A DNA stretch of 64,000 nucleotides. Source: Nocardioides humi. Its GTDB lineage: Bacteria > Actinomycetota > Actinomycetes > Propionibacteriales > Nocardioidaceae. A model generated the notes under the pieces. The model saw nothing but the letters and a program-made list of their open reading frames with translations, was not told the DNA's origin and made no database searches. Location of the stretch: contig NZ_CP041146.1 of assembly GCF_006494775.1 (NCBI RefSeq), positions 3,596,001 to 3,660,000 of the forward strand. Direction: 5' to 3'. Position 1 is the first letter of the stretch. Every line of letters begins with the position of its first letter. A program made the translations under genes and the position numbers. Shown here piece by piece: positions 7,389 through 44,710 of this stretch.

Positions 7389-7403
7389 TTCCGGCACCCG
7401 GAA
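7389..7403. promoter_or_regulatory. Operator-like palindrome TTCCG-N5-CGGAA upstream of livG
   Basis: Perfect 5+5 bp inverted repeat with a 5-bp spacer, 89-103 bp before the livG start. It belongs to a set of similar sites across the island. Forty-four bases downstream of its start lies GTCACTGTC (7433), which recurs at 43 bases from the site upstream of the binding-protein gene. Confidence 0.65.
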
Positions 7404-7491
7404 CGGCGGGTGGCCGGCCAGGTGTGTCCTGCGTCACTGTCACGATCACCGTCGGTCAGGCGACGGGACACCAGCTCGTGAAGGGGCGTAC

Positions 7492-8253
7492 ATGGCCGAC
7501 CTCGTCGTTGAGGAACTCTCCATGCGGTTCGGCGGCATCACCGCGCTCGACTCGCTCTCCATGACCGTCGAGGCCGGGCAGATCTGCGGGCTCATCGGGC
7601 CGAACGGTGCAGGGAAGACCACCCTCTTCAACTGCGTCGGCCGCGTGTACCAGCCGAGCGCCGGAAGCGTGCGTCTCGGGGACGTCGACCTGCTGGCGCT
7701 GCCCGCCCACCGGATCGCGTACGCGGGGGTCGCGCGGACCTTCCAGAACCTGGGCCTGTTCCCCTCCCTGACGTTCCTCGAGAACGTGATGGCAGGGGCC
7801 TACTCCAGCGTCGGCGGCGGCTTCCTCAAGTCCATCCTGCGGATCGGTATCGCGGCCCAGGAGCGCGAGCTCGAGGCGCGCGCACATCGCCTCCTGGAGA
7901 TGCTCGAGCTGGACCGGCACGCGTTCAGCCTCGCCAAGGACCAGCCGTTCGGGACGCTCAAGCGCCTCGAGATCGCGCGGGCCCTCGCCAGCGGCCCCCG
8001 CCTCCTGCTCCTGGACGAGCCGGCGGGCGGACTCACCGACAGCGAGGTGGGGGAACTGTCGGAGCTGATCGACAGCCTTCCCGAGCGGTTCGGGGTGACG
8101 GTGCTGCTCGTCGAGCACAGGATGGCGATGGTCATGGGCATCTCCGACAAGATCGTCGCGATGAGCTACGGCAGGAAGCTCGCCGAGGGCTCTCCCGAGG
8201 AGATCCGCCAGCATCCCGAGGTCATCGCCTCCTACCTCGGTGGTGCGGCGTGA
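7492..8253 (+). CDS. livG: Branched-chain-type ABC transporter ATPase (LivG)
   Basis: 253 aa. Walker A GPNGAGKTT lies near residue 36, the LivG-specific FQNLGLFPSLT near 84, a signature region FGTLKRLEIARAL in place of canonical LSGGQ, Walker B LLLLDEPAGG near 170, and a switch His in VEHRM. One of two ATPases of the second Liv-type importer. First gene of a livG-livF-livH-livM operon; its stop overlaps livF by 4 nt (GTGA). Probably regulated through the palindrome at 7389. Confidence 0.94.
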   Translation: MADLVVEELSMRFGGITALDSLSMTVEAGQICGLIGPNGAGKTTLFNCVGRVYQPSAGSVRLGDVDLLALPAHRIAYAGVARTFQNLGLFPSLTFLENVMAGAYSSVGGGFLKSILRIGIAAQERELEARAHRLLEMLELDRHAFSLAKDQPFGTLKRLEIARALASGPRLLLLDEPAGGLTDSEVGELSELIDSLPERFGVTVLLVEHRMAMVMGISDKIVAMSYGRKLAEGSPEEIRQHPEVIASYLGGAA

Positions 8254-8957
8254 GCGCCCTGGTCCTGGAGGACGTGTGCGCCGGCTACGGCGCCGGCGAC
8301 GTCCTCGGCGACGTCGGCCTCCGCGTCGATCCGGGGGAGATCGTGGTCATCCTCGGCGCGAACGGGGCGGGCAAGACGACCCTCATGCGCGCGATCTCCG
8401 GCACCATCGCTCGGCGGGGCACGGTCCGGCTCGGAGACCGCGACCTGGTCCGCGCGAAGCCCGACCAGATCGTGCGGGCCGGGGTCGTGCAGGTGCCGCA
8501 GGGCCGCGGCACCATCGCCGACCTCTCGGTCGAGGACAACCTCCGGCTCGGGGCGTACATCCGCCGCGACAAGGAGGTCGCCAAGGACCTCGCCCACTGG
8601 TACGACGTCTACCCGCGCCTGGCCGAGCGCCGCAAGCAGAAGGCCGGGTTCCTCTCGGGGGGCGAGCAGCAGATGCTGGCCATCGCGCGCACCCTCATGA
8701 CGCGACCCCGGGTGCTGCTCTGCGACGAGCCGAGCCTCGGCCTCTCGCCGCGCCTCACCTCGGAGCTCTTCGCGTCCCTCGCGTCCCTCAACAAGGAGCT
8801 CGACCTCTCCATCCTGGTCGTCGAGCAGAACGCCATGGTCGCCCTCGCCATCGCCTCGCGCGCCTATCTGCTGGAGGCCGGGCGGCTCGCCCCCAGCCGG
8901 GATGCGGCCGAGCTGATGAGCGACGACGCCATCAAGACCGCATATCTCGGAGGCTGA
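8250..8957 (+). CDS. livF: Branched-chain-type ABC transporter ATPase (LivF)
   Basis: 235 aa, GTG start overlapping livG. Walker A GANGAGKTT lies near residue 33, then VPQGRGTIADLSVEDNL, the typical LivF loop. The signature is LSGGEQQM near 135, Walker B VLLCDEPSLGLS near 156 and the switch His position reads VVEQN. Pairs with LivG to energise the LivH/LivM permease. It is not closely similar to the livF at 4386, so the two importers are separate systems and not a recent duplication. Confidence 0.94.
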   Translation: MSALVLEDVCAGYGAGDVLGDVGLRVDPGEIVVILGANGAGKTTLMRAISGTIARRGTVRLGDRDLVRAKPDQIVRAGVVQVPQGRGTIADLSVEDNLRLGAYIRRDKEVAKDLAHWYDVYPRLAERRKQKAGFLSGGEQQMLAIARTLMTRPRVLLCDEPSLGLSPRLTSELFASLASLNKELDLSILVVEQNAMVALAIASRAYLLEAGRLAPSRDAAELMSDDAIKTAYLGG

Positions 8958-8961
8958 GACC

Positions 8962-9852
8962 GTGGATCTGCTGATCGCCCGCGTCCTCGACGGGTTCAAC
9001 AACGGGGTCATCTACGGATTCCTCGGTCTCGCGCTCGTGTGCGTCTACCGCGGGACCGGGCACCTCAACCTCGCCCAGGGCGAGATGGCGATGTTCTGCG
9101 CGTTCCTGGCCTACGCGTTCATCGGCGCCGGCCTTCCCGTGCCCCTGGCCATCCTGCTGGTCGTCGCCATCGGGTTCGTCGGCGGCGCGACCGTCGAGCG
9201 GTTCCTGATCCGTCCCCTCGGTCACGACGCGGAGTACCCGATCCTGCTCGTCACCGTCGGCATATTCCTCGCGCTCAACGCAGGAGCCGGGGTGATCTGG
9301 GGCGGTGATCCCCTGGTGTTCCCGACGGTCGTCCCGTCCGGTCCCGACGACTACATAGCCGTCCTCGGCCAGCGGCTGCACTATCAGAAGGTGGTCATCG
9401 CCGGCCTCCTGGCGGCGTGCCTCGCCGTCCTGTACGCGCTGTTCCGCTACACGCGGATCGGGCTGGCGATGCGGGCGTCGTCCAGCAATCCGGACTCGAC
9501 GCTGCTCCTGGGAGTCCCGGTCCACCGGATCAACTCGCTCGGCTGGGCGATCGCGGCCGGCGTGGGCGCCCTGCTCGGGCCGCTCGTCGCCCCCAGCACG
9601 ACGCTCAACACGATGATGATGCTGCACTTCATCCTCTACGCCTGCGCGGCGGCGACCCTGGGCGGGTTCGACAGCCCCGCCGGCACGGTGTTCGCGGGCG
9701 TGATGCTCGGCGTGGTGGAGAACATCGTCGCCAGCTACGTCGGGGCCGTCGGGTCGGACCTGAAGCAAGGCGTCACCCTGCTCATCCTCCTGGCGGTGCT
9801 CATGATCCGCCCGTCGGGACTGTTCGGATCCCAGAAGGTGGAGCGAATCTGA
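8962..9852 (+). CDS. livH: Branched-chain-type ABC transporter permease (LivH)
   Basis: 296 aa, about eight hydrophobic segments. It carries the family's early signature (YGFLGLALVCVYRGTGHLNLAQ, residues about 16-37, starting in helix 1) and the EAA-like cytoplasmic loop around RASSSNPDS. Forms the transmembrane channel with LivM. Starts 4 nt after livF at a GTG, and its TGA overlaps the livM ATG (TGATG). This intact N-terminus shows what is missing from the fused permease at the window start. Confidence 0.93.
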   Translation: MDLLIARVLDGFNNGVIYGFLGLALVCVYRGTGHLNLAQGEMAMFCAFLAYAFIGAGLPVPLAILLVVAIGFVGGATVERFLIRPLGHDAEYPILLVTVGIFLALNAGAGVIWGGDPLVFPTVVPSGPDDYIAVLGQRLHYQKVVIAGLLAACLAVLYALFRYTRIGLAMRASSSNPDSTLLLGVPVHRINSLGWAIAAGVGALLGPLVAPSTTLNTMMMLHFILYACAAATLGGFDSPAGTVFAGVMLGVVENIVASYVGAVGSDLKQGVTLLILLAVLMIRPSGLFGSQKVERI

Positions 9853-10937
9853 TGGCTGTCCTCCCGCGCGACATCCCGCGTGACACCCACCTCTTCAAGG
9901 CGCTCAGGCTGGCTCCGGCCGTGGCGACCGTGGTCGTCGTGCTGTTGATCCCGTACGTCCTGCCCACCTACCGCATCAGTCAGATCAGCGGCGCCTGTGT
10001 GATGGCCCTGGCCGTGGTCGGGCTCAACCTGCTGACCGGCTACGGGGGCCAGATCTCCCTGGGCCACGCGGCGTTCTTCGGGCTGGGGGCCTACACGACC
10101 GGCATCCTGATCGCGACGTACGACGTCGGCTGGATCCTCGCCTTCGGTGCCAGCGTCGTGGTGTGCTTCGTCGTGGGGGTGCTCGTCGGGATGCCGGCGC
10201 TGCGGGTCAGGGGCATGTACCTCGCGCTGGTGACGCTGGCGCTGGGCGTTCTGTTCCCCAGCCTGGTGCGACGGTTCAGCGAGCTGACCGGAGGCTCGCT
10301 CGGACTCATGGGCATCCGGGTCGATCCGCCGGACATCGCCTACTTCGGTGGTCCGACGGCGAACATCCTGTGGCAGTACTGGATGACGATGATCTGTCTC
10401 GGCCTCGGCTGCCTCGTGGTCTGGAACCTCGTGCGGAGCAGGACCGGCCGCGCCATCGTCGCGCTGCGCGACAACGAGCGCGCGGCGATCATCATGGGGG
10501 TCAACCGCACCCTGGTCCGGACCACCCTCTTCGGGGTGTCCGCGGGGATCGCCGGGCTCGCGGGAGCGCTGTTCGCGGTCCAGACGGGCCTGCTGACCCC
10601 TGAGAGCTTCTCCCTGCTCGTCACCATCTACTTCCTCGTGGCGATGGTGCTCGGGGGCAGCTCGACCTACTGGGGCCCCATCCTGGGCGGCTTCGCGATC
10701 TACTTCATCCCCATCTGGTCCTCCGACGTGACCGGCGGGCCGATCTCCGGCGTGCTGTTCGGCGCCGTCGTGATCGCGCTCGTGTTCCTCATGCCCAGCG
10801 GACTCGTCGGGCTCGCCAAGAGCGCGGCCGCCCGGTTCGTCACCTTCTCCCCTGTGGCTCCCGCGCCGGCGGAGCCGGATCCCTCAGGAGAGGTCGCCGC
10901 CCGGCGGAGGGAGCTGGCCGCCGACCGGGTCTCCTGA
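9852..10937 (+). CDS. livM: Branched-chain-type ABC transporter permease (LivM)
   Basis: 361 aa from the ATG that overlaps the livH stop. It has the LivM hallmark GLNLLTGYGGQISLGHAAFF near residue 56 and the ATPase-contact loop with RDNERAA near residue 210. About ten hydrophobic segments, then a polar Pro/Ala/Glu-rich tail of about 35 residues. The 3' end overlaps the convergent hydrolase gene by 54 bp, and its stop codon lies in the loop of a perfect palindrome. Confidence 0.93.
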   Translation: MAVLPRDIPRDTHLFKALRLAPAVATVVVVLLIPYVLPTYRISQISGACVMALAVVGLNLLTGYGGQISLGHAAFFGLGAYTTGILIATYDVGWILAFGASVVVCFVVGVLVGMPALRVRGMYLALVTLALGVLFPSLVRRFSELTGGSLGLMGIRVDPPDIAYFGGPTANILWQYWMTMICLGLGCLVVWNLVRSRTGRAIVALRDNERAAIIMGVNRTLVRTTLFGVSAGIAGLAGALFAVQTGLLTPESFSLLVTIYFLVAMVLGGSSTYWGPILGGFAIYFIPIWSSDVTGGPISGVLFGAVVIALVFLMPSGLVGLAKSAAARFVTFSPVAPAPAEPDPSGEVAARRRELAADRVS

Positions 10938-11666
10938 GACCCGGTCGAGGAGGCCGGCCAGCTCGACCGGTCGGGAGAGGAAGGGGGAGTGGTCGGTATC
11001 GAGGGTGAGGACGTGCTCGGGGGCGAAGCCCCGGTGCATCGACCGCTGCTTGGCGAGAGGGATCGCCCGGTCCCGCGTGCACTCGACGTAGAAGCGGGGA
11101 ACGCGTCCGGACACCGAGGGTGCGGTCACCGGCTGCGTCTCGACCAGGAGGCTCTCGGGCCGGAGCCGCTCCTGCGCCCATGCGGCCGCCTTCGGCTCGC
11201 AGCAGCCGTAGAAGGCCTCCACCGCGCCCTCGCGCAGGATGGCCGAGCATCCGTTCCGCTCGTCGACCACACGGCAGTCGCGCACCGCCGAGGTCTCGAA
11301 GCCGGTGGCACTGAGGTCCAGCATGCTCTCGCCGGGACCTGGCACGAATGCGCAGACGTACACCAGCGCCGCCAGCTCGTCGGCGACCAGGGCCGCGGCC
11401 TGGGTCGCGGCCAGGCCTCCCATGCTGTGGGCCACCAGGATCGGCCTGGTTCGGGAGCCCCCGTCAGCGCCGCGGCGTACGGCGGCCACCACTCGGCCGG
11501 CGGACGCGTCCAGCGTCAGCCGGGCCGCCGCGCCGGTCGAGCCGGCGTCGTCGCCGTGGAGCTCGACCGCCTCGGTCGTGTGTCCCATGCCGCGCAGCAC
11601 GGCCTCGAGCGGCTGCCAGCACCACGGGCCGTGCCAGGCGCCGTGCACCAGGACGAAATGGCTCAT
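10884..11666 (-). CDS. Alpha/beta-hydrolase, esterase-like
   Basis: 260 aa. Oxyanion segment LVHGAWHGPWCW at residues 6-17, nucleophile elbow AHSMGG with Ser81, and a final His in DTDHSPF near residue 232. This matches small salicylate/methyl-ester esterase-like hydrolases of actinobacteria. Probably hydrolyses an ester or thioester in the cytoplasm. A longer upstream open frame has no good start; the ATG at 11666 begins the conserved fold. Convergent with livM and divergent from the binding-protein gene, with two operator-like sites between. Function in the pathway unknown. Confidence 0.85.
   Translation of the reverse strand: MSHFVLVHGAWHGPWCWQPLEAVLRGMGHTTEAVELHGDDAGSTGAAARLTLDASAGRVVAAVRRGADGGSRTRPILVAHSMGGLAATQAAALVADELAALVYVCAFVPGPGESMLDLSATGFETSAVRDCRVVDERNGCSAILREGAVEAFYGCCEPKAAAWAQERLRPESLLVETQPVTAPSVSGRVPRFYVECTRDRAIPLAKQRSMHRGFAPEHVLTLDTDHSPFLSRPVELAGLLDRVSGDPVGGQLPPPGGDLS
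10922..10947. terminator. Palindrome over the livM stop, likely bidirectional terminator
   Basis: A 12-bp perfect stem (CGACCGGGTCTC and its complement) with a 2-nt centre at 10934-10935. The livM TGA lies at its middle. It sits within the overlap of two convergent genes and could stop transcription from either side. No U-tract follows. Confidence 0.55.
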
Positions 11667-11708
11667 GGCCGAACGGTAGGAGCACGGCGCCGGCCGCCCG
11701 GTCCGGCA

Positions 11709-11723
11709 TTCCGGCCCACGGAA
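11709..11723. promoter_or_regulatory. Operator-like palindrome TTCCG-N5-CGGAA (perfect)
   Basis: Sequence TTCCGGCCCACGGAA, 43 bp upstream of the minus-strand hydrolase start. First of two sites in this divergent intergenic region. Confidence 0.65.
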
Positions 11724-11737
11724 CCGGCGGCCCGCCG

Positions 11738-11752
11738 TTCTGGCCGCCGGAA
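11738..11752. promoter_or_regulatory. Operator-like palindrome, one mismatch
   Basis: Sequence TTCTGGCCGCCGGAA, 29 bp from the neighbouring site and 95-109 bp upstream of the binding-protein start. GTCACTGTC follows at 11781, at nearly the same spacing as in the livG promoter. Confidence 0.6.
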
Positions 11753-11846
11753 CGCGCCTTGGCGCGTCCACCGTGACGTGGGTCACTGTCGCCGGGACCA
11801 GGGGTCGGCCGTCGACCCCGTGTGGCCATAGCGAAGGAGAGCGACT

Positions 11847-13178
11847 GTGGAGTTGCTGAGACTGCACCGCGGGTTCGGGGCCGCGCTCGCCGTAGGTGTG
11901 CTCGTCGTGACGGGATGCGGCGCACCCGGGGGATCGGGTGGGACGAGCGAGCTGTCGGACGCGGAGTCCGCAGCCGCGAAGAACCTCGGCATCGACCTCG
12001 ACGACTGCCCCGCCGGCGTCACCGACGAGGTCGAGGGCACCGTCAAGGTCGGCCAGACGCTGCCGCTGTCCGGGCCCATCGCGAGCGCGCTCAGCCCGAT
12101 CGGCGCCGGCGTCCAGGTACGGTTCGAGGTCGCCAACGAGTCCGGTGCCTACGAGCACGACTTCGAGCTGGTCCAGAAGGACGACCAGTTCGCCCCTGAC
12201 AAGGCGCTGGTCGCCTCCCGCGAGCTGGTGGCCAAGGACCAGCCCGTCGCCTTCACCTCCCAGGTGGGCACGCCCCAGGTCCTCGCCGTCCGGGACGTGA
12301 TGGAGGAGACCTGCACGCCGCTCATCCCGGCGGTCTCCAACGGCGTCTCGGCCAACAGTCCCGACTCGCACCCGTGGACGGCGGTCGTGACGCTGCCCTC
12401 GGCGGTGGACGTGCGTGCCTGGAAGGACCACGTCGTCGAGACCCACCCGGACGGCGCCAAGGTCGCGTTCCTCTACTCCAACGACGCGTCCGGCGAGGAC
12501 TATCGTGCCGCCGTCGAGCGGGAGCTCGAGGGGACCGATCTCGAGCTGGTGGCGACCGAGTCGGTCGAGATCACCGAGACGGCGGCACCGGCGTCGCAGA
12601 TCACGACCCTCCGGTCCAGCGGCGCGGACGTCATGTTCCTCGCGCCTCAGGCATCGCAGTGCACGCCCGCGCTGACCGAGATGGCCAGCCAGGGATGGCA
12701 CCCCGACATCTACGTCACGGCGAGCTGCCCCACGCTCGCCCTGGATCAGGCCGGCCAGGCGGCCGACGGCGTCTACTACAACCGCTACCTGAAGGACCCG
12801 TTGCGTGCTCCCGACAACAACGACCCCGACGTCCTCGCCTGGCTGGACAACATGAAGAGGTACGAACCCGGCGCGCCCATCAACCAGACCTCGCTGGCCG
12901 GATATGTCGACGCGGCCGTGTTCTTCGCCGCCGTCGACGACGCCCTGGACTCGGAGCTGGGGCTGAGCAGGCTGGGGCTCATCGTGGCCGCGGCGCACGT
13001 CGACTTCCAGTCGGAGCTGATGCCCGACGGCGTGAAGATCCAGCTGGACGGCCTCGACGACCAGGTGGCGATCGAGTCGACGCTGATGGCGAAGTACGAC
13101 GCGTCGACCAAGATCCTCGACGACGTCAAGCTCTACGACTACCAAGGGCAGATGACGGGCGTGGCCAGCCACGGCTAG
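11847..13178 (+). CDS. Periplasmic-binding-type substrate-binding lipoprotein of Liv importer
   Basis: 443 aa. Type II signal peptide with lipobox LVVTGC and lipidated Cys24, then a low-complexity linker and a Peripla_BP_6 (LivJ-like) domain starting at VKVGQTLPLSGP. Tethered to the outer face of the membrane, it would capture substrate for LivHMGF encoded just upstream. GTG start with GAAGGAGA 7 nt before it. Monocistronic, with its own promoter region containing two operator-like palindromes and a terminator downstream. In catabolic islands such proteins often bind aromatic acids; the ligand here is not evident. Confidence 0.92.
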   Translation: MELLRLHRGFGAALAVGVLVVTGCGAPGGSGGTSELSDAESAAAKNLGIDLDDCPAGVTDEVEGTVKVGQTLPLSGPIASALSPIGAGVQVRFEVANESGAYEHDFELVQKDDQFAPDKALVASRELVAKDQPVAFTSQVGTPQVLAVRDVMEETCTPLIPAVSNGVSANSPDSHPWTAVVTLPSAVDVRAWKDHVVETHPDGAKVAFLYSNDASGEDYRAAVERELEGTDLELVATESVEITETAAPASQITTLRSSGADVMFLAPQASQCTPALTEMASQGWHPDIYVTASCPTLALDQAGQAADGVYYNRYLKDPLRAPDNNDPDVLAWLDNMKRYEPGAPINQTSLAGYVDAAVFFAAVDDALDSELGLSRLGLIVAAAHVDFQSELMPDGVKIQLDGLDDQVAIESTLMAKYDASTKILDDVKLYDYQGQMTGVASHG

Positions 13179-13215
13179 GAGCTGGACAGCGGCCCGACCG
13201 GCGGTGCCGGCGTGG

Positions 13216-13249
13216 CGGGGCAGGGTGATGACGACGTCGCCCTGCCCCG
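13216..13249. terminator. Hairpin terminator after the binding-protein gene
   Basis: 10-bp stem CGGGGCAGGG/CCCTGCCCCG with a 14-nt loop, starting 38 nt after the stop codon. No U-tract, as is usual at this GC content. Confidence 0.65.
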
Positions 13250-13256
13250 TGCGTGG

Positions 13257-13271
13257 TTCCGGCCGCCGAAA
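13257..13271. promoter_or_regulatory. Operator-like palindrome, one mismatch
   Basis: Sequence TTCCGGCCGCCGAAA, 43-57 bp upstream of the enoyl-CoA hydratase start. Confidence 0.58.
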
Positions 13272-13313
13272 CGACACGCGACCGTCGCGGCGCCCCGGCC
13301 GTAGCCTCGGCAC

Positions 13314-14090
13314 GTGGAGAACGTGACGTACGAGCAGCTCGGCCAGGTCGCGGTGATCACCCTGAACCGGCCCGAGAAGAGGAATGCCATCGACGCGCGG
13401 ATGGCGCACGCCATCGCGTCGGCGCTCGACCGCGTCGAGACGGATCCCACGATCCGCGCCGCCGTCCTGGCCGCCACCGTCACCGAGCCGCGACCCGTCT
13501 TCTGCTCGGGTCACGACCTCACGGCGATCCCCGGCGAGCTCGAGGGCGGTGAGCTCGCGGCCACGTCGAAGGGCGGTTTCGCCGGCATGACGCGCTACGA
13601 GCGGACCAAGCCGCTGGTCGCCGCGGTGGACGGCCTGGCGACGTCGGGCGGCCTCGAGATGGTGCTCGCCTGCGACCTGGTGGTCGCGACGACGCGCTCG
13701 TCGTTCGCGCTGGCCGAGGTCCGCTGGGGGCTGGTCGCCGGTGCCGGAGGCCTGTTCCGGCTGCCGTGGGCGATCGGCCCCGCCGCGGCGATGGACATGA
13801 TCCTGACCGGTGAGGCGATCGATGCCCAGCGGGCCTACACGCTCGGCCTCGTGGGCACCCTCGTCGAGGACGACGTCGTCGCCGCTGCTGTGCACCGAGC
13901 CGAGCTCGTCTGCGCTCACAGCCCGGCTGCGGTCACGGTCAGCCGCCGGGTGGCGGACTGCGCCTTCGCGCTGCCGGAGACCGAGCTGTGGGCCCTCAAC
14001 GACCGCCTGGAGCACGACCTGCTCGCCACCGACGAAGGCGTCGGTCAGGGCCTGCAGGCGTTCGCGCAGCGCGGGTCGGCGACGTCCTAG
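13314..14090 (+). CDS. Enoyl-CoA hydratase/isomerase (crotonase family)
   Basis: 258 aa. Oxyanion-hole segments FCSGHDLTA near residue 64 and TSGGLEMVLACD near 108. A Glu at the first catalytic position (LAEVRWGL, near 137); the second catalytic Glu position reads AMDMIL, with Asp. Likely hydrates an unsaturated acyl-CoA in side-chain or ring degradation. GTG start. Single gene with its own operator-like site, convergent with the MaoC/CoA-transferase pair. Confidence 0.88.
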   Translation: MENVTYEQLGQVAVITLNRPEKRNAIDARMAHAIASALDRVETDPTIRAAVLAATVTEPRPVFCSGHDLTAIPGELEGGELAATSKGGFAGMTRYERTKPLVAAVDGLATSGGLEMVLACDLVVATTRSSFALAEVRWGLVAGAGGLFRLPWAIGPAAAMDMILTGEAIDAQRAYTLGLVGTLVEDDVVAAAVHRAELVCAHSPAAVTVSRRVADCAFALPETELWALNDRLEHDLLATDEGVGQGLQAFAQRGSATS

Positions 14091-14590: not shown

Positions 14591-16862
14591 CGCGCCTGCG
14601 GTGCGAACTCGTCCCCGATGACGCCGTCCCGGCGCAGCACTGCGCGCTCGTCCTCGTCGAAGCCGAGGTCGGCCAGGATCTCGTCGTTGTGCTGTCCGAG
14701 CATCGGCGCGGGTCCGGGCATCGCCGACGCGGGCGCGGCCGAGAACCGCATCGGCCAGCCGATGAACCGGACGTCGCCGTTGAGGGGGTGCTTCACGGTG
14801 AACACACGCTGGCGCGCCTGCAGCGCCGGATGCTCGATGATCTCGGCGTCCCTTCCCACCAGAGCCGCCGCCACCCCGAGCGCTGCAGCTCCTCCAGCAC
14901 CACGGGCGAGGAGTGCGCGGCGCACCACGCCGCGAGCTCGGCGTACGGCTCCCGGTCGACCCGGATCCCCAGTGCGGCGAGCGAGATCCACGTCTCGCGG
15001 TCGGGGATCGTCACCGCGAGCCAGTCGCCGCTGCCGGTGGCGAAGGTGTCCTGCACGACGAGGCCCTCCCGGCGATTGCCGAGCCGGCCGGGTTCGGCGC
15101 CCAGTGAGCCGGCGATCACGGCGCGCGCGCTGAGCGGGGTGGCGGCGTCGCAGAGGGCCACCTCGATCGTGGTCGCCCGCCCCGTCCGGTCCCGCCGCCG
15201 GAGCGCGGCCAGCACGGCGGAGGCCGTGGTGAACGCCGACATGGGATCGATGGCCGATCCGGTGAGGACGGGCGGGCCGTCCGCATAGCCGGTCATGGCC
15301 GCGACACCCGACGTCGAGTCTGCGGTGAAGGTCGTCCCCGGCCGATCGCGCCAGGGGGACCGGAGCCCCCAGGCCGGCATCCGGACGACGATCACGCCCG
15401 GGTTCAGGGCCTGCATGCCGGCGGCGTCGAGGCCGAGCCGGTCGAGCACCCGCGGCGAGTAGTTGTCGATGACGACGTCCGCCGAGGCGACCAGCCGCCG
15501 CAGCACCTCGACGCCGCGTGCGTCCGAGAGCTCCGCGGTGATGCCGCGGGCGCCCATGTTGCACTGGTTGAACAGCGACTGGCGGTCCCAGAACCGTGGG
15601 AGCTGCGGGTCCACCATCGAGAAGCGGATCGGGTCGGGACGGCGCACGCTCTCGACCTTGATCACGTCGGCGCCGAGGTAGGTGAGGTAGCTCGCCGCGA
15701 GCGGCCCGGCCTGGAAGAGACCGAACTGGACGACGCGCATGCCGGCGAGCGGCCGGAAGCCGGCGGCGGAGCCGCCGGCGGTGGATCGGGGCGCCGGCTC
15801 ACGGGAGGACAGGTCCTGGTCGTGGTCGTCGACGTCCGCGAGCACCCCCGGCGCCCAGTCCGGCAGGTGACCGAAGCGGTACGCCGGCCGGGGGATCAGC
15901 GCGGTGGCCGGACCGTCGGGGGTGTCGACCGGGGCCTCGACGTACGTCCCGCGGCTGCGGAACGGGAGGGACCGGGGGACATCGGCCGGCTCGACGACCG
16001 GGACCAGCGAGGCACGGTGCTGCTCGGAGGTGTCCATCAGCTCCGCGATCGTGAACTGCCGCGTGTAGCCACCGATGAGCTCGGTCAGCTCGTCGGCGTG
16101 GGCGAACCGCTGGCTGAGAGTCGCGTACCGGGGGTCGCGCAGCTCCTGCAGGTCGGCCATCTCGACGAAGATCTCCCAGTGCAGCTGGCTCACCACCGGC
16201 ACGCAGACCCAGCCGTCCTTCGCCGGCTGGACGGTGGCGATGAACCGGGAGGGGATCGGGTCGGGCAGGTGTCCCTCGATCTGGTGCGGCAGCCAGGGAT
16301 AGCCGGCATGGGCGATGAGGGCCTCCAGCCGCGAGACGTCGACCTCGTTGCCCCGCCCCGTCCGGTCGCGGTGGAGGATCGCGCTGAGCGCCCCGACCGC
16401 GGCGCAGAGTCCCGCCGTCGTCTCGGACAGATCGGTGGTGGTGGCCACGGGCGGGCGGTCGCCGGTGTCGCGCACCGCCATGAGGCCGCTCTCCGCCTCG
16501 AGGACGAACGGACTGGTGGGCCGGTCCCAGGCCGCTCCGCGCCCGTAGTCGGAGATGCGGACCACGACGATGTCGTCCCGGCCGGCAGCGACCCGGTCGA
16601 CCACGTGGCCGGCCGCGTCGTCGTCGGTCACGACCACGTCCGCCCGGGAGACCCAGCGCGCCAGCGTCTCCTCGTCGGGCGCCACGATCGACTGCTTCCG
16701 GCCGTGCAGGAACAGTGAGTAGCCGGGTTCGCTCTCGCGTCGCGGGTCTCCACCCGCGGGCTCGATCCGGGCCACCCTGGCGTCGAAGTCGGCGAGGATC
16801 CGGGTGCACTGGGACGCGGCGTCCGTCGTTCCTACCTGCAGCACGAACACGTCGTCGAGCAC
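14587..16862 (-). pseudogene. Two-domain family III CoA-transferase (CaiB/BaiF), frameshifted near the 3' end
   Basis: Two tandem CaiB/BaiF domains (about residues 1-370 and 375-757) that would move CoA between an acyl-CoA and a free acid. The second begins at LAGMRVVQFG. The frame is intact to about residue 662 (VVLEELQRSG), then continues in another frame as VAAALVGRDAEIIEHPALQ to a normal end. One G is missing in the run at 14874-14877; restoring it gives about 757 aa. As written, the protein loses its last 96 residues. This is a sequencing error or a fresh mutation, since everything else is intact. Upstream lies an imperfect operator-like site (16934). Confidence 0.85.
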
Positions 16863-16933
16863 CGGGCTCCTCCTCGGGTGTGGGGGTGGTCACCGTGACC
16901 CTAGGGGGACGCGGACCGCGTCTGCGGTCGCTT

Positions 16934-16948
16934 TGCCAGTGTCCGGAA
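16934..16948. promoter_or_regulatory. Weak operator-like site upstream of CoA-transferase
   Basis: Minus-strand sequence TTCCGGACACTGGCA: left half perfect, right half 3 of 5. It lies 72-86 bp before the CoA-transferase start, in a 133-bp gap. Confidence 0.3.
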
Positions 16949-16995
16949 CACCTGCTTTCAGGCCCGTGCGCCGTCGTGGCAGGCGTCGTGCCGGA

Positions 16996-19187: not shown

Positions 19188-19229
19188 GGGCCCGATGCCA
19201 CCACAGCGTGGAGGTCTGCTCAAACGATG

Positions 19230-19244
19230 TTCTGGCGTCCGGAA
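19230..19244. promoter_or_regulatory. Operator-like palindrome in divergent promoter, one mismatch
   Basis: Sequence TTCTGGCGTCCGGAA, almost exactly midway: 43 bp from each divergent start codon (19187 minus, 19288 plus). One bound regulator could control both. Confidence 0.62.
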
Positions 19245-19287
19245 CCTCGCCTCGCCTCGGGTCCCGGGCTCCCGCAACATCCGGCGA

Positions 19288-20934: not shown

Positions 20935-22127
20935 TGACCATCTCGACCGAGGCCACCGCTCTGCGGGAGGAGATCCGCGCCTGGGGACTGGCCCACGTCC
21001 GGCCGCTGGCGCGTGAGGCGGACCGTCTGCACGGGCCGCCGCCGGGCGTGGAGGCCGTGCTTGCGGCAGCCCCGACCGACCTGGCGGCGATCGCGGTCGC
21101 CGCCCTGCCGTCGCTGCCCGAGGAGCTCCGGCCGTGGTTCCCGTCCGAGCGCGAGACCGGCTACGTGCTGGGCGCGCTGATGATGGAGGTCCAGCCCTAC
21201 GGTGACAGCTGGGTCCTCACCCAGCTGCGAGGCGCGGGCATCGCGGAGAAGGTCGTGAAGCTGCTCGGCACCCCTGAGCAGCAGGAGAGGTGGGTCGGCA
21301 GCCACTCCGGGACCTTCCGGCGGACCGCCTTCGCGCTCACCGAGCCCCACTTCGGCTCGGACCCGTCGAGTGTGGCCACGACGGCCACGCGCGACGGCGA
21401 CGGCTGGGTGATCAACGGACGCAAGATGTACTGCTCGAACGGCGCGAGCGCCGACTACGCCGTCGTCTTCGCGACCATCGACAAGGAGGCCGGCGCCGAC
21501 GGGATCCGGGCGTTCGTGGTGCCGACGGGCACCCCCGGGTACGTCGTGGGCAAGCGCAACGAGACGAAGCTGGGCATCCGCTCCCACGAGACGTCCGAGC
21601 TGCTCTTCGAGCAGATGGCGGTGCCCGCGGACGCCCTGCTCGGCGGCGAGGACGCGGGTGGGAACGGACTGATGGGCGCGCTGGGCACGCTGAACACCAG
21701 CCGTCCCCTGATGGGCGCCTGGGCGCTGGGGATCGCGGGGGCCGCACTGGACGCCGCCAGGGAGTGGTTCGGCGAGAACGCCGACGCCTACTCCGCCCGC
21801 CGGCGGCAGCTGGCGCAGGACGACCTGCGGCGGATGGACACCGCCATCGCCGAGGCCCGCACCCTGGTGCTGCAGGCGTGCGAGCTGGCCAACCGTGGTG
21901 TCCCGAACCGCCGGGAGGCGTCGACGGCCAAGGCCGTCGCCCCCGCCGTGGGCGAGGCGGTGTGCCGCCGCGTCATCGAGCTGGTCGGTCCCGAGGCCGT
22001 GTCCGAGCAGCACCTCTTCGAGAAGTGGTTCCGCGACGTGCGGATCATGGACATCTTCGAGGGCTCGGGGCAGATCCAGCGGCTGATGGTCAGCCGCTCG
22101 CTGATGGGACGGAACGCCGTCCGCTAG
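20934..22127 (+). CDS. Acyl-CoA dehydrogenase
   Basis: 397 aa, FAD-dependent desaturase of acyl-CoA esters. Middle-domain motif FALTEPHFGSDPSS near residue 130 and C-terminal helical domain ending FEGSGQIQRLMVSR. ATG at 20934 chosen because GGAGG (20923-20927) is spaced 6 nt from it; a GTG three bases earlier is possible. Overlaps the hydroxylase stop. Pairing with a ring hydroxylase suggests that side-chain beta-oxidation and ring attack run together. Confidence 0.9.
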   Translation: MTISTEATALREEIRAWGLAHVRPLAREADRLHGPPPGVEAVLAAAPTDLAAIAVAALPSLPEELRPWFPSERETGYVLGALMMEVQPYGDSWVLTQLRGAGIAEKVVKLLGTPEQQERWVGSHSGTFRRTAFALTEPHFGSDPSSVATTATRDGDGWVINGRKMYCSNGASADYAVVFATIDKEAGADGIRAFVVPTGTPGYVVGKRNETKLGIRSHETSELLFEQMAVPADALLGGEDAGGNGLMGALGTLNTSRPLMGAWALGIAGAALDAAREWFGENADAYSARRRQLAQDDLRRMDTAIAEARTLVLQACELANRGVPNRREASTAKAVAPAVGEAVCRRVIELVGPEAVSEQHLFEKWFRDVRIMDIFEGSGQIQRLMVSRSLMGRNAVR

Positions 22128-22154
22128 AACCGCTCGGGCGCGCCGCAACGCGGA

Positions 22155-22175
22155 TATACTGTGACCCGCGACACA
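22155..22175 (+). promoter_or_regulatory. Promoter and possible operator of the IclR gene
   Basis: TATACT (22155-22160) is a good -10 hexamer, rare in this GC-rich DNA. An interrupted inverted repeat TGTGACCCGCGACACA (22160-22175) overlaps its downstream edge and could be an autoregulatory site. No clear -35 element. It does not match the TTCCG-N5-CGGAA palindrome. Confidence 0.5.
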
Positions 22176-22215
22176 GCTCCCGGAAGCTCGTCGACACTGC
22201 AACTGGAGGTCAACG

Positions 22216-23016
22216 GTGACCATCGAACCGGAGGTTCGCCAGGCGACGGAGGCGCCGTCGATCCTCTCCAAGGCCTTCGACCTGCTGTACTCCTTCAACA
22301 CCCGGGACCGGGTCATGACGCTGAGCGAGCTGTCCCGCGCGTCCGGCCTGGCCAAGTCGACGGTCCACCGACTGCTCGCGCGGCTGATCGAGCTCGGTGC
22401 GGTGGAGCCGCACCGGTCGGGCTACAAGCTCGGCGTGGGGCTGCTGCAGCTGACCGCGAGCATGCCGTCGGCCGCGATCCGCGAGATCGCCGTGCCGTAC
22501 CTCGCCGCCCTGCACCGGTGGAGTCGTCACAGCGTGCACTTCGGCGTGCTGCGCGATCTCGACGTCGTCTATCTCGAGAAGCTGGTCGGGCAGGGTGCGC
22601 CGGTGACGATCACGTCGGTGGGCTCGCGGGTCCCGGCGAACTGCACGGCGATCGGGAAGGCCCTGCTCGCCTGGAACTCCCTCGACTCGTTCGAGGAGGA
22701 CGCCCCTGAGCGGCTGCCGCGCCTGACCCCGCGCTCCATCACCGACCCGCGCGTGCTCGTCGAGCAGCTCCGGCAGATCCGTCGCGACGGTGTCGCCGTG
22801 GAGGTCGGCGAGGCCCAGGCCGGGATCGCGTGCGTGGGGGTCCCGATCGTGATCAACGGCTACGCGGCGGCGGCGATGTCGATCGCCTACCCGATCGACC
22901 AGGGCGTGTCGGAGAAGGCGGAGCACGCACTGGTCGACGCGGCGGGCCGGATCGCGCGCGAGGCCAAGGGCGCCATGGCCCGAGGTCAGAGCGGATGGTT
23001 CCCCGCCGAGCCCTGA
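22216..23016 (+). CDS. IclR-family transcriptional regulator
   Basis: 266 aa. N-terminal winged helix (about residues 15-80, with LSELSRASGLAKSTVHRLLARL as the recognition unit) and C-terminal effector-binding domain (about 90-255). IclR proteins often control aromatic catabolism; MhpR is a member. GTG start with CTGGAGG 7 nt upstream. It sits among the meta-cleavage genes and is the only pathway-type regulator in the first 49 kb, so it is the best candidate for controlling the island. Its 3' end overlaps the convergent hydratase gene by 31 bp. Confidence 0.92.
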   Translation: MTIEPEVRQATEAPSILSKAFDLLYSFNTRDRVMTLSELSRASGLAKSTVHRLLARLIELGAVEPHRSGYKLGVGLLQLTASMPSAAIREIAVPYLAALHRWSRHSVHFGVLRDLDVVYLEKLVGQGAPVTITSVGSRVPANCTAIGKALLAWNSLDSFEEDAPERLPRLTPRSITDPRVLVEQLRQIRRDGVAVEVGEAQAGIACVGVPIVINGYAAAAMSIAYPIDQGVSEKAEHALVDAAGRIAREAKGAMARGQSGWFPAEP

Positions 23017-23855: not shown

Positions 23856-23856
23856 G

Positions 23857-24978: not shown

Positions 24979-25096
24979 GTCGGTCTCCTCGGTCCGCGGG
25001 TGCTCCCCAGTGTGCTCAGCCGAGCACGCTCGTGCCGGAACCAGAATGCCTCGTTCCACTCGCCGATACCGTCGCGCCGCCGGGTGCCCGGCGTGG

Positions 25097-25111
25097 TTCC
25101 GGCGACCGAAA
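25097..25111. promoter_or_regulatory. Operator-like palindrome in divergent promoter, one mismatch
   Basis: Sequence TTCCGGCGACCGAAA, 86-100 bp before the extradiol dioxygenase and about 120 bp before the divergent acyl-CoA dehydrogenase. Confidence 0.58.
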
Positions 25112-25196
25112 CCCGGCATGGCCGGACCGCGCGGAGCGCAGCACGATCGATCCAGGTCGGTCCCGCCGGGGGACCGGGTGGACGGAAGGACCCTCC

Positions 25197-30245: not shown

Positions 30246-30327
30246 GGGCGTCTCCTGTTCTCCGATGCTCGAGCGCGACCATCTGCCCTCGATCCTCGTG
30301 CGGCCCGGCGAGCCGGACGAGGGCCGG

Positions 30328-30342
30328 TTCCGCGGCACGGAA
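30328..30342. promoter_or_regulatory. Operator-like palindrome TTCCG-N5-CGGAA (perfect)
   Basis: Sequence TTCCGCGGCACGGAA in the 103-bp gap between the SDR stop and the Rieske alpha start. It suggests that alpha has its own regulated promoter inside the operon. Confidence 0.65.
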
Positions 30343-30348
30343 CAGGAG

Positions 30349-32230: not shown

Positions 32231-32293
32231 CGTTCCTCCTCTGGTCGTCGGGGGTCGCTGCACTCTGCGACACACCGCCGGTGGACGGCGACG

Positions 32294-32318
32294 ACCGGTT
32301 CCGCCGTCCGGAACCGGT
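32294..32318. promoter_or_regulatory. Extended operator-like palindrome, perfect, divergent promoter
   Basis: The strongest copy: 10-bp arms ACCGGTTCCG and CGGAACCGGT around a 5-bp spacer. It lies in the 150-bp gap between the dioxygenase operon (minus) and the 12-gene operon (plus), where it could control both. Confidence 0.7.
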
Positions 32319-32391
32319 GGGCGGCAGGGGTGGCCTAGCGACTGGAACACCTCCTTGAGCGGGCGGGGAGCGGCTGCGAAGGATGCCGCTC

Positions 32392-41139: not shown

Positions 41140-42149
41140 GCGCGGTGCTTCCCGACGTCGAGGCGGCCCTGACCGGATGGCTCTCCGCCGAGACAGGCGT
41201 CGGCGTCCGAGTCAGGTCCGTGGAGCCCACGCCCGGCAACGCCGGCCGCGGCTACCTGTCCCGGGTGTCGATCGGCGGCCGGGAGCTCGGGATCGCGGTC
41301 CGGCTGGCGGTCCCGGGCATCGCGGAGACCGGAACCAACGACGTGCTGCGGCAGGCCCGGCTGGTCGAGCACGTGCACGCCCACGACGTACCGGTCCCGG
41401 GCGTGCTGTGGCGCACCGCGGACCACCACTGGTTCGGATCGAGCGCGGTGGCCTATCAGTGGGTCGAGGCGAAGCCGCTCCACTTCTTCCGGGAGGACCT
41501 GTCGGTGCCCGCTCCTGCGGACCGGCATGCGGACCTGCTCCTCCAGGCGGTGGACGCGCTGGCACAGCTCCACGGGGTCCCCGTCCCGGACGGGGTCGGC
41601 CGAGGAGCCGATGCCACCACCGAGGTCCGCCGATGGCAGTCGCTCCTCGGCAGACTGGACGCGCAGGACCCGCTGGACCCCGCTGACATCGCCGCGGTGG
41701 AGGCGCTGGGACGGATCCTGCTCGAGGATCCGCCACCCCTGGAGGTCGGGCTGATCCACGGCGACTTCCAGTCCAACAACCTGCTGTTCGCCGACGGCCG
41801 CCTCAGGGCGATCGTCGACTGGGAGCTGGCCGGCGCGGGTCCCCAGCTGCTGGACCTCGCCTGGCTCGCGCTCTTCGCCGACCTGTCGTGCTGGTCGCCC
41901 GGCCAGCGTGCCCGGATGCGCGTCGACGTCCCCACCGCGGCGCTCACGGAGCGGTACGCCGCCCTCCGCGGCGGGACGCCCGGCCTCGCCTGGGCGCGTG
42001 CCGCGGCCTGCTACCGCTTCGCCGCGCTCACCCTCTACAACCTGCGCCTGCACCGCACCGGCAAGAGACCGGACGCCGCATGGGAGCAGCTGGCCGACTC
42101 GGTGCCCTGTCTGGTCGCCGCCGGACGACGAGCACAGGAGACGACATGA
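41136..42149 (+). CDS. APH-fold kinase (LvaA/ACAD10-kinase-like)
   Basis: 337 aa phosphotransferase. Catalytic loop HGDFQSNN (His208, Asp210, Asn215) and metal-binding DWE (Asp228). Substrate is more likely a hydroxyacyl-CoA than an antibiotic, because it is translationally coupled to an ACAD10/11-like dehydrogenase. In LvaA and in the N-terminal domains of ACAD10/11 this fold phosphorylates the 4-hydroxy group of acyl-CoAs. Not an obvious resistance gene. Confidence 0.85.
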   Translation: MSAVLPDVEAALTGWLSAETGVGVRVRSVEPTPGNAGRGYLSRVSIGGRELGIAVRLAVPGIAETGTNDVLRQARLVEHVHAHDVPVPGVLWRTADHHWFGSSAVAYQWVEAKPLHFFREDLSVPAPADRHADLLLQAVDALAQLHGVPVPDGVGRGADATTEVRRWQSLLGRLDAQDPLDPADIAAVEALGRILLEDPPPLEVGLIHGDFQSNNLLFADGRLRAIVDWELAGAGPQLLDLAWLALFADLSCWSPGQRARMRVDVPTAALTERYAALRGGTPGLAWARAAACYRFAALTLYNLRLHRTGKRPDAAWEQLADSVPCLVAAGRRAQETT

Positions 42150-42913
42150 CCTACAGCACGCCCGACCGGCTGTTCAGCCTCGCGGGCAAGGTGGCCATGG
42201 TCACCGGTGGCAGTCGCGGTCTCGGCGCCGAGATGGTCCGGGCCTTCGCCGCGGCCGGCGCGGACGTGGTGATCGCCAGCCGCCGGCTCGAGAGCTGTGA
42301 GGAGCTCGCCGCGGAGGTACGGCGGGAGACCGGCCGGCGCGCCCTCCCCATCGCGCTGCACGCCGGCGCCTGGGACCAGGCGGCCGACGTGGTCGACGCG
42401 GTCCTCCGCGAGATGGGTGGCATCGACGTCCTCGTCAACAACGCGGGGATGTCGCCGGTCTACCCGGATCTCGCGTCGATCACGGAGGAGCTCTGGCAGA
42501 AGGTCTTCGACGTCAACCTCCGGGGCCCGTTCCGGCTCAGCCAGCTGGTCGCTCCCACCATGGTCGAGCGGGGCGGCGGGTCCATCGTCAACATCGGCAC
42601 GGCGGCGGTGTTCAAGCCTCGCGACTACCTCCTGCCGTACGCCGCCGCGAAGTCCGGCGTGCTGTCGATCACCGAGGCGATGGCCCACGCCTACGGCCCG
42701 ACGGTGCGGGTGAACGCGATCATCCCCGGCCGCTTCTTCAGCGACATCAGCAAGCACTGGGACATGGACGAGATCGCGGTCGAGGTCCAGCAGTTCGCGG
42801 CCCGGCGTGGCGGCGAGGTCGACGAGATCGTCGGTGCCGCGCTGTACCTGGCGTCGGGAGCGAGCAGCTACACCACGGGCGCCCAGCTGCGGGTCGACGG
42901 CGGGTACGCATGA
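42146..42913 (+). CDS. SDR with Thr at the catalytic Ser position
   Basis: 255 aa SDR: TGGSRGLG near residue 20, NNAG near 97 and YAAAK near 170. Thirteen residues before the Tyr, where Ser is normal, stands Thr (NIGTAAVFKPRDY). Ends RVDGGYA. ATG overlaps the kinase stop and the gene's stop overlaps the reductase. Thr can replace Ser in some SDRs, so activity is still plausible. Confidence 0.86.
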   Translation: MTYSTPDRLFSLAGKVAMVTGGSRGLGAEMVRAFAAAGADVVIASRRLESCEELAAEVRRETGRRALPIALHAGAWDQAADVVDAVLREMGGIDVLVNNAGMSPVYPDLASITEELWQKVFDVNLRGPFRLSQLVAPTMVERGGGSIVNIGTAAVFKPRDYLLPYAAAKSGVLSITEAMAHAYGPTVRVNAIIPGRFFSDISKHWDMDEIAVEVQQFAARRGGEVDEIVGAALYLASGASSYTTGAQLRVDGGYA

Positions 42914-43878
42914 GCCGGACCTCCGAGGGCCGGCTCCCGGTCATCGTGCGGGAGCGGGAGCGGCTGACCGACGACATCGTCCGGCTGACGCTCGGACCCG
43001 CCGACGGAGCGCCGCTGCCGGCGTGGACTCCGGGAGCCCACATCGATCTGGTGCTGGGACCCTGCGCCCTGGTCCGGCAGTACTCGCTGTGCGGGGATCC
43101 CCGCGACCGGACCTCGTGGCGGGTGGCGGTGCTGCGCGAGGCGGGCGGGCGGGGCGGCTCTGTGTTCGTGCACGACCAGGTGCGTGAGGGGCTGGTCCTC
43201 GAGGCGTCGTCGCCCCGCAACCACTTCGAGCTGGAGACCGCCGGTCGCTACGTCTTCATCGCCGGCGGGATCGGCGTCACGCCGATCGTCCCGATGCTCG
43301 CGGCCGCCGACGCCGCCGGCGCCGCGTGGTCGCTGACCTACGGCGCCCGGGGTCGCGACGCGCTGGCGTTCGCCGGAGAGGCGGCGACGTACGGCGACCG
43401 CGTGCGGCTGCACGCACATGACGAGAGCGGTCCCATCGACCTCCCCGCCGCGCTCGGCGAGCCGGATCCCACCGCCCTCGTCTACTGCTGCGGGCCCGAG
43501 CCGCTGCTCGCGGCCGTCGAGGACCACCTCGCCCTGACGCCGGGATGGTCGCCCCGCCAGCTCCGCACGGAGCGGTTCGCCCCCCGGAGTGACGCGCTCG
43601 ACCGGCCCTCGACCCCCTTCGAGGTGGAGCTCCGGCGGACGGGCGTGCGCGTGCAGGTCGCGGCGGACCAGTCGGTCCTGGAGGCGGTGCGGGCCGCCGG
43701 CGTCGTCGTGGAGTCCTCCTGCGCGGAGGGAACCTGCGGCACCTGCGAGACGGCCGTGCTGGGAGGACGGGTGGACCACCGGGACGCGATCCTCGACGAC
43801 GACGAGCGGGCGGCGAACGACGTGATGTTCCTCTGCGTGTCCCGCGCCGCCGACGGAGAGCTCGTCCTCGACCTCTGA
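42910..43878 (+). CDS. Phthalate-dioxygenase-reductase-type oxidoreductase (VanB-like)
   Basis: 322 aa, three domains in order: FMN-binding barrel with RQYSL near residue 57, NAD(P)H domain with AGGIGVTPIVPML near 118, and C-terminal plant-type [2Fe-2S] ferredoxin with Cys271, Cys276, Cys279, Cys309. Passes electrons from NADH to a Rieske oxygenase without a separate ferredoxin. The only such oxygenase here is the alpha/beta pair at 28.9-31.7 kb on the other strand, and it is the natural partner. Last gene of the 12-gene operon. Confidence 0.9.
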   Translation: MSRTSEGRLPVIVRERERLTDDIVRLTLGPADGAPLPAWTPGAHIDLVLGPCALVRQYSLCGDPRDRTSWRVAVLREAGGRGGSVFVHDQVREGLVLEASSPRNHFELETAGRYVFIAGGIGVTPIVPMLAAADAAGAAWSLTYGARGRDALAFAGEAATYGDRVRLHAHDESGPIDLPAALGEPDPTALVYCCGPEPLLAAVEDHLALTPGWSPRQLRTERFAPRSDALDRPSTPFEVELRRTGVRVQVAADQSVLEAVRAAGVVVESSCAEGTCGTCETAVLGGRVDHRDAILDDDERAANDVMFLCVSRAADGELVLDL

Positions 43879-43905
43879 GGGGCGCCGGTCCGAGCCGGTG
43901 CCCTC
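43877..43905. terminator. Bidirectional terminator between convergent genes
   Basis: An 11-bp stem with one bulged G and one G-T pair, and a 6-nt loop (43889-43894). It overlaps the stop codons of both the reductase and the convergent SDR. Confidence 0.62.
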
Positions 43906-44668
43906 AGGTCACCAGCAGCCCGCCGTCCACCGGCAGGACGACGCCGGTGACGTACGCCGCGGCGTCGCTCGCGAGGAAGAGCACCGCCCCGGACAGCTCG
44001 TGGGCCTCACCCAGCCGTCCGGCGAGGACGCGATGCTCGACCAGGTACGACTCGTAGCTCTCGTCGTAGGTGCCTGTCATCTCGGTGCGGAACGAGCCTG
44101 GGGCGATGGCGTTCACCCGGATGCCCCGGCGTCCGGTCCACTGCTGGGCCAGGTCGCGGGTCAGGCCCAGCACCCCGGCCTTGCTGGAGGAGTAGGCCGC
44201 CTGCGGCAGCCCCGCCGTGGTGAGCGCGAGGGCGCTGGCGATGTTGACGATCGAGGAGCCGCGGGGCATCCGGCTCGCGCACGCCTGCGACATGAAGAAG
44301 GTCCCGACCAGGTTCAGGTCGACCACCGCGCGGAACTCCTCCTCCGTCTCCCGCAGGGCCGGGACGGCGGACGCCACGCCGGCGTTGTTGACCAGGACGT
44401 CGATCGCGCCGAACCGCTGCGCCGCCTCCGCCGCCACCCGCTCGCAGTCCTCCCGCACGGATACGTCCGCCACCACGGCGGCGCAGTCCCCGCCCAGCGC
44501 GCGGATCTCCTCCGCGACCCGTTCGAGTCGGTCGGGGCGACGCGCCGCCAGGACGAGCGTGGCACCGGCCCCCGCCAGGTCGACGGCGACCCGGGCGCCG
44601 ATCCCGGACGAGGCGCCGGTCACCACCGCCACCCTCCCGGCGAGGGAGAACCTCTCGAGCACCGACAA
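43904..44668 (-). CDS. Short-chain dehydrogenase/reductase
   Basis: 254 aa classical SDR: TGASSGIG near residue 17, NNAG, Ser in NIASALAL, YSSSK, ending PVDGGLLVT. The start is probably TTG at 44668 because GAGGAG lies 5-6 nt before it; GTG at 44662 is the alternative. Monocistronic, divergent from the ring-opening module. Confidence 0.86.
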   Translation of the reverse strand: MSVLERFSLAGRVAVVTGASSGIGARVAVDLAGAGATLVLAARRPDRLERVAEEIRALGGDCAAVVADVSVREDCERVAAEAAQRFGAIDVLVNNAGVASAVPALRETEEEFRAVVDLNLVGTFFMSQACASRMPRGSSIVNIASALALTTAGLPQAAYSSSKAGVLGLTRDLAQQWTGRRGIRVNAIAPGSFRTEMTGTYDESYESYLVEHRVLAGRLGEAHELSGAVLFLASDAAAYVTGVVLPVDGGLLVT

Positions 44669-44695
44669 CGCGACTCCTCACGGGCTGGAGACCTG

Positions 44696-44710
44696 TTCCG
44701 CACGCCGGGC
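44696..44710. promoter_or_regulatory. Weak operator-like site
   Basis: TTCCGCACGCCGGGC: left half perfect, right half two mismatches. 28-42 bp upstream of the SDR start, in the divergent region before the ring-opening module. Confidence 0.3.

Follow-up and report, generated by a model that had tools for sequence, protein, structure and literature searches.

Which regulator reads a palindrome that stands repeatedly between the catabolic genes of a Nocardioides humi cluster, and does it turn these genes on or off? We addressed this question in a stretch of 64,000 nucleotides (contig NZ_CP041146.1, positions 3,596,001 to 3,660,000 of the forward strand; hereafter the window, in whose numbering coordinates are given unless called genomic). 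An original prediction, made from the letters of the window, had noted eight near-perfect intergenic copies of TTCCG-N5-CGGAA, taken them as the mark of a local regulon and named the IclR-family regulator encoded at 22216-23016 as the first candidate binder. Our analysis makes it quite probable that the palindrome is the operator of this IclR, which would control about ten promoters over 34 kb as one catabolic regulon, most likely by activation. The motif, its clustering, its linkage to one IclR clade and its fixed spacing to a promoter-like hexamer were all computed.

Form and clustering of the palindrome

All eight copies were found where they had been reported, each of them between genes. 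Four (7389, 11709, 30328 and 32299) match TTCCG-N5-CGGAA perfectly and four (11738, 13257, 19230 and 25097) with one mismatch, and the arms of 10 bp claimed at 32294-32318 can be read in the sequence. A ninth strong copy lies at position -1643, 1.6 kb ahead of the window. The nine sites share a longer form, GTTCYG-N5-CRGAAC, which begins one base earlier: all end in C, eight begin with G (that at 11708 has A), and in those at 13256 and 25096 one arm carries the half-site GTTTCG. Every one of the nine is intergenic, in gaps of 99 to 218 bp whose bounds rest on start codons placed in this analysis.

We scanned the whole genome (6.22 Mb, about 73% GC) for both forms, using the reversed motif pattern as control, and the outcome of this check, which had been proposed with the original prediction, depended on the form. 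The short form was hardly enriched at up to one mismatch (80 places against 68 for the control), and at up to two mismatches it showed no excess in the window (31 matches, where shuffled sequence averaged 29.1); the two-mismatch motif was rejected as evidence because it equals background. The exact long form occurred seven times in the genome and its reversed control not once. Six of the seven copies fall within 34 kb (genomic positions 3594357-3628314, window -1643 to 32314; hereafter the island), a clustering for which a rough bound gives P ~2e-10. A position weight matrix (PWM) built from 91 sites outside the window and scanned over 124 kb ranked the nine island sites first to ninth, ahead of scores of 17.8 and 12.7, although this ranking is partly non-independent, the consensus used to collect the 91 sites having been started from the window. 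The 49-64 kb block contains no strong copy, as had been claimed (the best, at 60587, has a PWM score of 10.6). The regulon begins at -1643, beyond the view of the original prediction. Clustering in the genome, intergenic placement and recurrence in orthologous loci support the idea of a local regulon.

Linkage of the motif to one clade of IclR proteins

The protein encoded at 22216-23016 (+), the proposed binder, carries both Pfam domains of its family (HTH_IclR, 56.6 bits, cut-off 22; IclR_C, 111.5 bits, cut-off 24); its score for the PcaR/PcaU/PobR subfamily (TIGR02431), 118.5 bits, is below the curated cut-off of 284.75. In 96 related genomes, its own included, with at most 27 candidates scored per genome, close relatives appeared in two genomes of the same genus (55% identity in G033 and 53% in G057), with the next candidates at about 37%. 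Both exact genomic copies of the motif in G033 lie less than 7 kb from the IclR relative, which also has a one-mismatch copy upstream. The 41 kb around the G057 relative contain all four exact copies of that genome and five of its 14 one-mismatch copies, one of them just upstream of iclR.

A search of the contigs of named genomes with the single protein gave no match. Using an alignment of the three IclR proteins, a search in which the motif played no part, we obtained 13 loci from Gordonia, Nocardia, Nocardioides, Streptomyces and Mycolicibacterium; L097 was excluded from the counts as it lies on the same contig as the G057 relative, and L098 and L099 share one genome. GTTCC-N7-GGAAC occurred 26 times in the 13 loci, and no other spacing between 0 and 20 was seen more than once. 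Six plasmid records held an IclR orthologue, and the three used, from Rhodococcus and Pseudonocardia, contained 9, 5 and 12 sites, where the control pattern matched 1, 1 and 2 times. All 26 sites of these plasmid loci (L104-L106) were outside annotated coding sequences, in stretches of which only 10-42% is intergenic. The motif thereby recurs in 16 other IclR-orthologue loci of seven genera, with orthologues of 45-57% identity that all possess the recognition-helix stretch KSTVHRL (16 of 16), and a site stands upstream of iclR in 15 of them, L099 being the exception.

As a control with another regulator we took four plasmid clusters (L107-L110, from Rhodococcus ruber, R. pseudokoreensis, Mycobacterium paragordonae and Streptomyces sp. 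NBC_01454) out of 46 plasmid records in which a LigB relative was found. These are homologous extradiol clusters in which an FCD- or GntR-type regulator replaces IclR. Their 124 kb gave three motif matches against four for the reversed control, that is, no excess, whereas 17 IclR-linked stretches, the window among them (472,522 bases), gave 100 sites against 11. The motif therefore tracks the regulator and not the catabolic genes. The four control clusters have the same extradiol core, three of them also with amidohydrolase and Rieske genes, and the pathway core seems to have swapped its regulators between IclR and the GntR/FCD type.

From this linkage and from footprinting across genomes, the local IclR very probably binds the palindrome. 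The candidate put forward in the original prediction is now strongly supported, as the motif follows the IclR clade, recurs upstream of iclR and shows no excess in the GntR/FCD clusters.

Promoter geometry and proposed mode of action

Among the 100 sites, a TANNNT hexamer occurs 17 times at 38 bp and 14 times at 39 bp from the palindrome centre, and at offsets outside 37-40 bp on average 0.2 times, with a maximum of three. The looser NANNNT is present at 38 or 39 bp in 90 of the 100 sites and YANNNT in 66, compared with a mean of 8.5 per 100 for NANNNT at ten other offset pairs and with two of the 11 control-pattern sites; the figure of 90 counts a hexamer on either side of the palindrome, and the offset was chosen from the same data. 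By group, NANNNT was found in 9/9 sites of the window, 8/9 of Gordonia, 6/6 of Nocardia, 28/30 of Nocardioides, 8/11 of Streptomyces, 9/9 of Mycolicibacterium, 17/21 of Rhodococcus and 5/5 of Pseudonocardia. Between operator and hexamer no position exceeds 0.37 bits, so that there is no clear -35 element. The composite of a PWM score of at least 4 and YANNNT had 12 matches in 124 kb, eight of them in the island, and none in the reversed sequence; the four matches outside the island are weak (scores 4.3-8.0). Sites precede the Rieske alpha subunit gene in 11 loci besides the window, with the hexamer at 38/39 bp in every one, and likewise besides the window the importer in three loci and the ring hydroxylase in four (one a 27% relative), while for 30 of the 100 sites no window-homologous gene lies within 260 bp. 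Over 74 promoter-like arms there are 26 instances of a start codon 6-8 bases past the hexamer (in the window at 11666, 13314 and 19288), which suggests that some target genes have leaderless transcripts.

The -10 element of a promoter usually occupies positions -12 to -7 or so, and with the spacing of 38-39 bp the operator centre would be near -50. A constant position ahead of the -35 region is what an activator requires; it suggests an activator layout and predicts the transcription starts. In the mechanism we propose, a dimer or tetramer of IclR would bind the consensus GTTC(C/T)(G/A)-N5-(C/T)(G/A)GAAC, 38-39 bp upstream of a poor -10 hexamer that lacks a conserved -35 partner. With an aromatic inducer bound, the protein would sit at about -50 relative to the start of transcription, immediately ahead of the -35 region, and could contact RNA polymerase and activate transcription; this position is also why activation is the likeliest mode. 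We infer binding, activation, inducer and substrate. A wider form of the proposal, to which we give about even weight, is that the 17-bp operator, set precisely 38-39 bp ahead of a degraded -10 element (often CANNNT), with no -35 and with some leaderless starts, is a compact promoter module kept in at least seven actinobacterial genera, on plasmids as well. IclR would then act as an obligatory activator of about ten promoters scattered over one catabolic island, genes could join by gaining one operator-to--10 unit, and the window lineage would have dropped autoregulation.

Several observations weigh against this reading, in addition to the partial circularity of the PWM ranking and the way in which the figure of 90 was counted. 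Towards iclR, in 15 loci, the hexamer is at 38/39 bp in eight, at 37 or 40 bp in four and absent in three (L096, L104 and L106), and the LigB promoters of L096, L100, L104 and L106 also lack a spaced hexamer. The promoter of the window's own iclR (22127-22216), read by eye, has a half-site and no copy of the motif, and the original prediction was right to raise this doubt. By this test the window gene is an exception among its orthologues and would not encode an autoregulated IclR. The related genomes are non-independent samples. The seventh exact genomic copy, at 1814732, lies outside the island and was not counted in the regulon, yet it scores 20.7 and has CAGCCT at 38 bp on its minus side; a thiolase gene ends immediately beside it, and a PLD-domain gene on the minus strand follows after about 390 bp. 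A one-mismatch copy at genomic position 3565392 (PWM 17.8) was rejected, having no spaced hexamer and being probably a chance match, and none of the eight other one-mismatch genomic copies scores above 14. The gap before iclR (22101-22216) opens next to a short palindrome, GGACGGAACGCCGTCC, which lies close to where the upstream gene ends; TATACT comes after this palindrome.

That the same IclR acts at the same sites as a repressor relieved by inducer, or in a dual role, is a lesser possibility but one to be kept in mind. IclR proteins are often repressors, according to the accessible portions of PMC13273656 and PMC9582017, and repression would suit iclR's own promoter, where the hexamer is missing or shifted in 7 of 15 loci. 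On the other hand, an operator near -50 leaves the -35 and -10 regions uncovered, stays at one distance in many promoters and is accompanied by no conserved -35, whereas in Rhodococcus opacus the putative CatR repressor site overlaps the -35/-10 of the catR promoter (PMC9582017, in the part available). That another regulator is the real or a second binder appears improbable. The main candidate is an IclR paralogue of 36% identity (at genomic position 4573589; L083 9854-10778, genomic about 4573453-4574377), divergent from an ABC (ATP-binding cassette) importer. Palindromes with PWM scores of 19.7 and 15.4 lie on its 5' side and its similar recognition helix has STVHRL in common with the window protein, so that the paralogue could bind too and cross-talk is possible, which also counts against a single binder; the window iclR, moreover, has no site of its own. 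However, outside this genome the motif accompanies orthologues of the window IclR at 45-57% identity, plasmid clusters included, and the paralogue lies about 0.95 Mb from the island. We find it scarcely credible that the copies are chance palindromes of GC-rich DNA or transcription terminators. At one or two mismatches the motif is indeed at or barely above background, but the clustering, the fixed 7-bp spacing, the recurrence with the IclR orthologue, the lack of excess in GntR/FCD-linked clusters and the fixed distance to the -10-like hexamer all speak against chance. Activation by the IclR of 22216-23016 thus stays our preferred explanation.

Predicted targets and related systems

Target direction was read from the side on which the spaced -10-like hexamer falls, and each of the nine island operators points in this way at an adjoining gene. 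The site at -1643 points at a periplasmic binding protein gene just ahead of the window (Peripla_BP_6), after which come the importer genes at the window start. An IS110-type transposase gene (2719-4248, minus strand) lies between the permease/ATPase gene and the next ATPase gene of this first ABC system, and the insertion may have interrupted the importer operon. Operator GTTCCGGCACCCGGAAC (7388-7404, plus), with CACTGT at 7435-7440, would serve the second ABC importer operon from 7492. Two operators stand back to back further on. ATTCCGGCCCACGGAAC (11708-11724, minus), with TACCGT at 11673-11678 on the minus strand, most likely serves an alpha/beta hydrolase gene (10884-11666, minus; Abhydrolase_6, 80.4 bits), a likely regulon member missing from the original list of targets, whose ATG at 11666 is 6 nt past the hexamer; GTTCTGGCCGCCGGAAC (11737-11753, plus), with CACTGT at 11784-11789, points at the periplasmic binding protein gene of the second importer, at 11847. 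GTTCCGGCCGCCGAAAC (13256-13272, plus) and its TAGCCT at 13302-13307 precede an enoyl-CoA (coenzyme A) hydratase gene whose GTG at 13314, 6 nt past the hexamer, makes it a leaderless candidate.

Downstream, GTTCTGGCGTCCGGAAC (19229-19245, plus) with CAACAT at 19275-19280 is directed at a flavin adenine dinucleotide (FAD) aromatic hydroxylase gene, the ATG of which (19288) is 7 nt after the hexamer; no spaced hexamer was found towards the divergent FAD_binding_2 gene (minus). GTTCCGGCGACCGAAAC (25096-25112, plus) with CACGAT at 25142-25147 faces the LigB-type extradiol dioxygenase gene (ATG 25197), again with no spaced hexamer towards its divergent neighbour, an acyl-CoA dehydrogenase gene (minus). 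In this same divergent promoter there is an extra half-conserved copy, GTTCCACTCGCCGATAC, at 25053-25069 (PWM 12.7), 43 bp or about four helical turns from the 25096 site. The dioxygenase itself matched none of the Protein Data Bank sequences. GTTCCGCGGCACGGAAC (30327-30343, minus) with GAGGAT at 30292-30297 (minus) precedes the gene of the Rieske oxygenase alpha subunit (minus), and GTTCCGCCGTCCGGAAC (32298-32314, minus) with CAGAGT at 32262-32267 (minus) a SnoaL_4 gene (minus), perhaps that of an oxygenase beta subunit. The latter site was originally assigned to the 12-gene SDR operon on the plus strand at 32383. It is 77 bp upstream of that operon, but there is no spaced hexamer on that side and its hexamer points to the SnoaL_4 gene; control of the SDR operon is less sure because the hexamer is missing.

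The two weaker copies of the original prediction fared differently. TTGCCAGTGTCCGGAAC (16933-16949, minus; PWM 11.3) is a plausible operator. On the side of a CaiB-type CoA transferase gene (14793-16862, minus) it has TAGGGT (16898-16903, minus), spaced 38 bp from the centre of the palindrome. The copy at 44695/44696 was rejected, as it scores 6.6 and has no spaced hexamer. The regulon would accordingly comprise two branched-chain-type ABC importers, the alpha/beta hydrolase, the enoyl-CoA hydratase, the FAD ring hydroxylase, the extradiol dioxygenase, the Rieske oxygenase and probably the CoA transferase. The Rieske, LigB, ring hydroxylase, 2-keto-4-pentenoate-hydratase-like and CoA steps suggest a pathway whose substrate is an aromatic or hydroaromatic acid. 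Outside the site cluster, two large AAA_16 + GerE (LuxR-type) regulator genes adjoin at 51012-57551 (minus).

The published sources named below were available in part, and the comparisons refer to the portions seen. All nine sites are 17-mers of the GTT-11-AAC frame, with at most one mismatch from GTTCYRN5YRGAAC. Group 1 of the IclR-family motifs has a GTT-11-AAC subgroup, GTTYCRYW3RYGRAAC (Suvorova and Gelfand 2021, PMC8222616), which shares with our sites the 17-bp palindrome, the GTT/AAC ends, the YCR/YGR core, an IclR regulator and aromatic catabolism. It differs in the W3 centre, our sites being GC-rich there with mostly G at position 7, and in placement: site centres in that work peak at -22 from the start codon and are mostly at -20 to -80, those in the window at about -50 to -124. 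The nearest named relatives of the operator that we found are two. The palindrome TTCTGCACAGCAGAA, proposed for the IclR-like gentisate regulator of Rhodococcus sp. TFB (PMC3937715), likewise has TTCYG-N5-CRGAA and stands in front of both the regulator gene and a catabolic gene, but the pathway is that of gentisate, two sites are named and no multi-promoter regulon is described. For GenR of Corynebacterium glutamicum, PMC8222616 gives ATTCC-N7(5)-GGAAT, a motif with the same half-site and 7-bp spacing but A/T at the ends, in a 3-hydroxybenzoate/gentisate regulon. HbaR1 and VanR1, IclR proteins of Rhodococcus opacus PD630, activate aromatic funnelling pathways (PMC9582017); their substrates differ, and the likeness lies in the activation of aromatic pathways. 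In Gordonia polyisoprenivorans 135 an IclR-extradiol-Rieske region has been pictured (PMC11117675) with the same core genes, and our locus L089, of the same species, carries the motif; no operator is described there and the window gene set is larger. PMC11852219 does not mention IclR. The motif is a GC-rich version of the known GTT-11-AAC class, and the spacing rule is the new part. We found no such rule in the accessible text of PMC8222616 or elsewhere in a literature search, nor a publication on this regulon, most subscription papers being outside the reach of that search.

The analysis makes a testable regulon out of catabolic genes that had lacked annotation, with one named regulator, nine strong operators and a rule for their spacing. 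From the rule one can predict the responding promoters, the direction of each and the positions of transcript starts. Similar clusters in Rhodococcus, Gordonia, Nocardia, Pseudonocardia and elsewhere can be annotated with it, and it could guide the construction of an inducible promoter for these hosts. Repression is the mode usually ascribed to IclR proteins; a layout from which the mode of action can be told by sequence would be useful.

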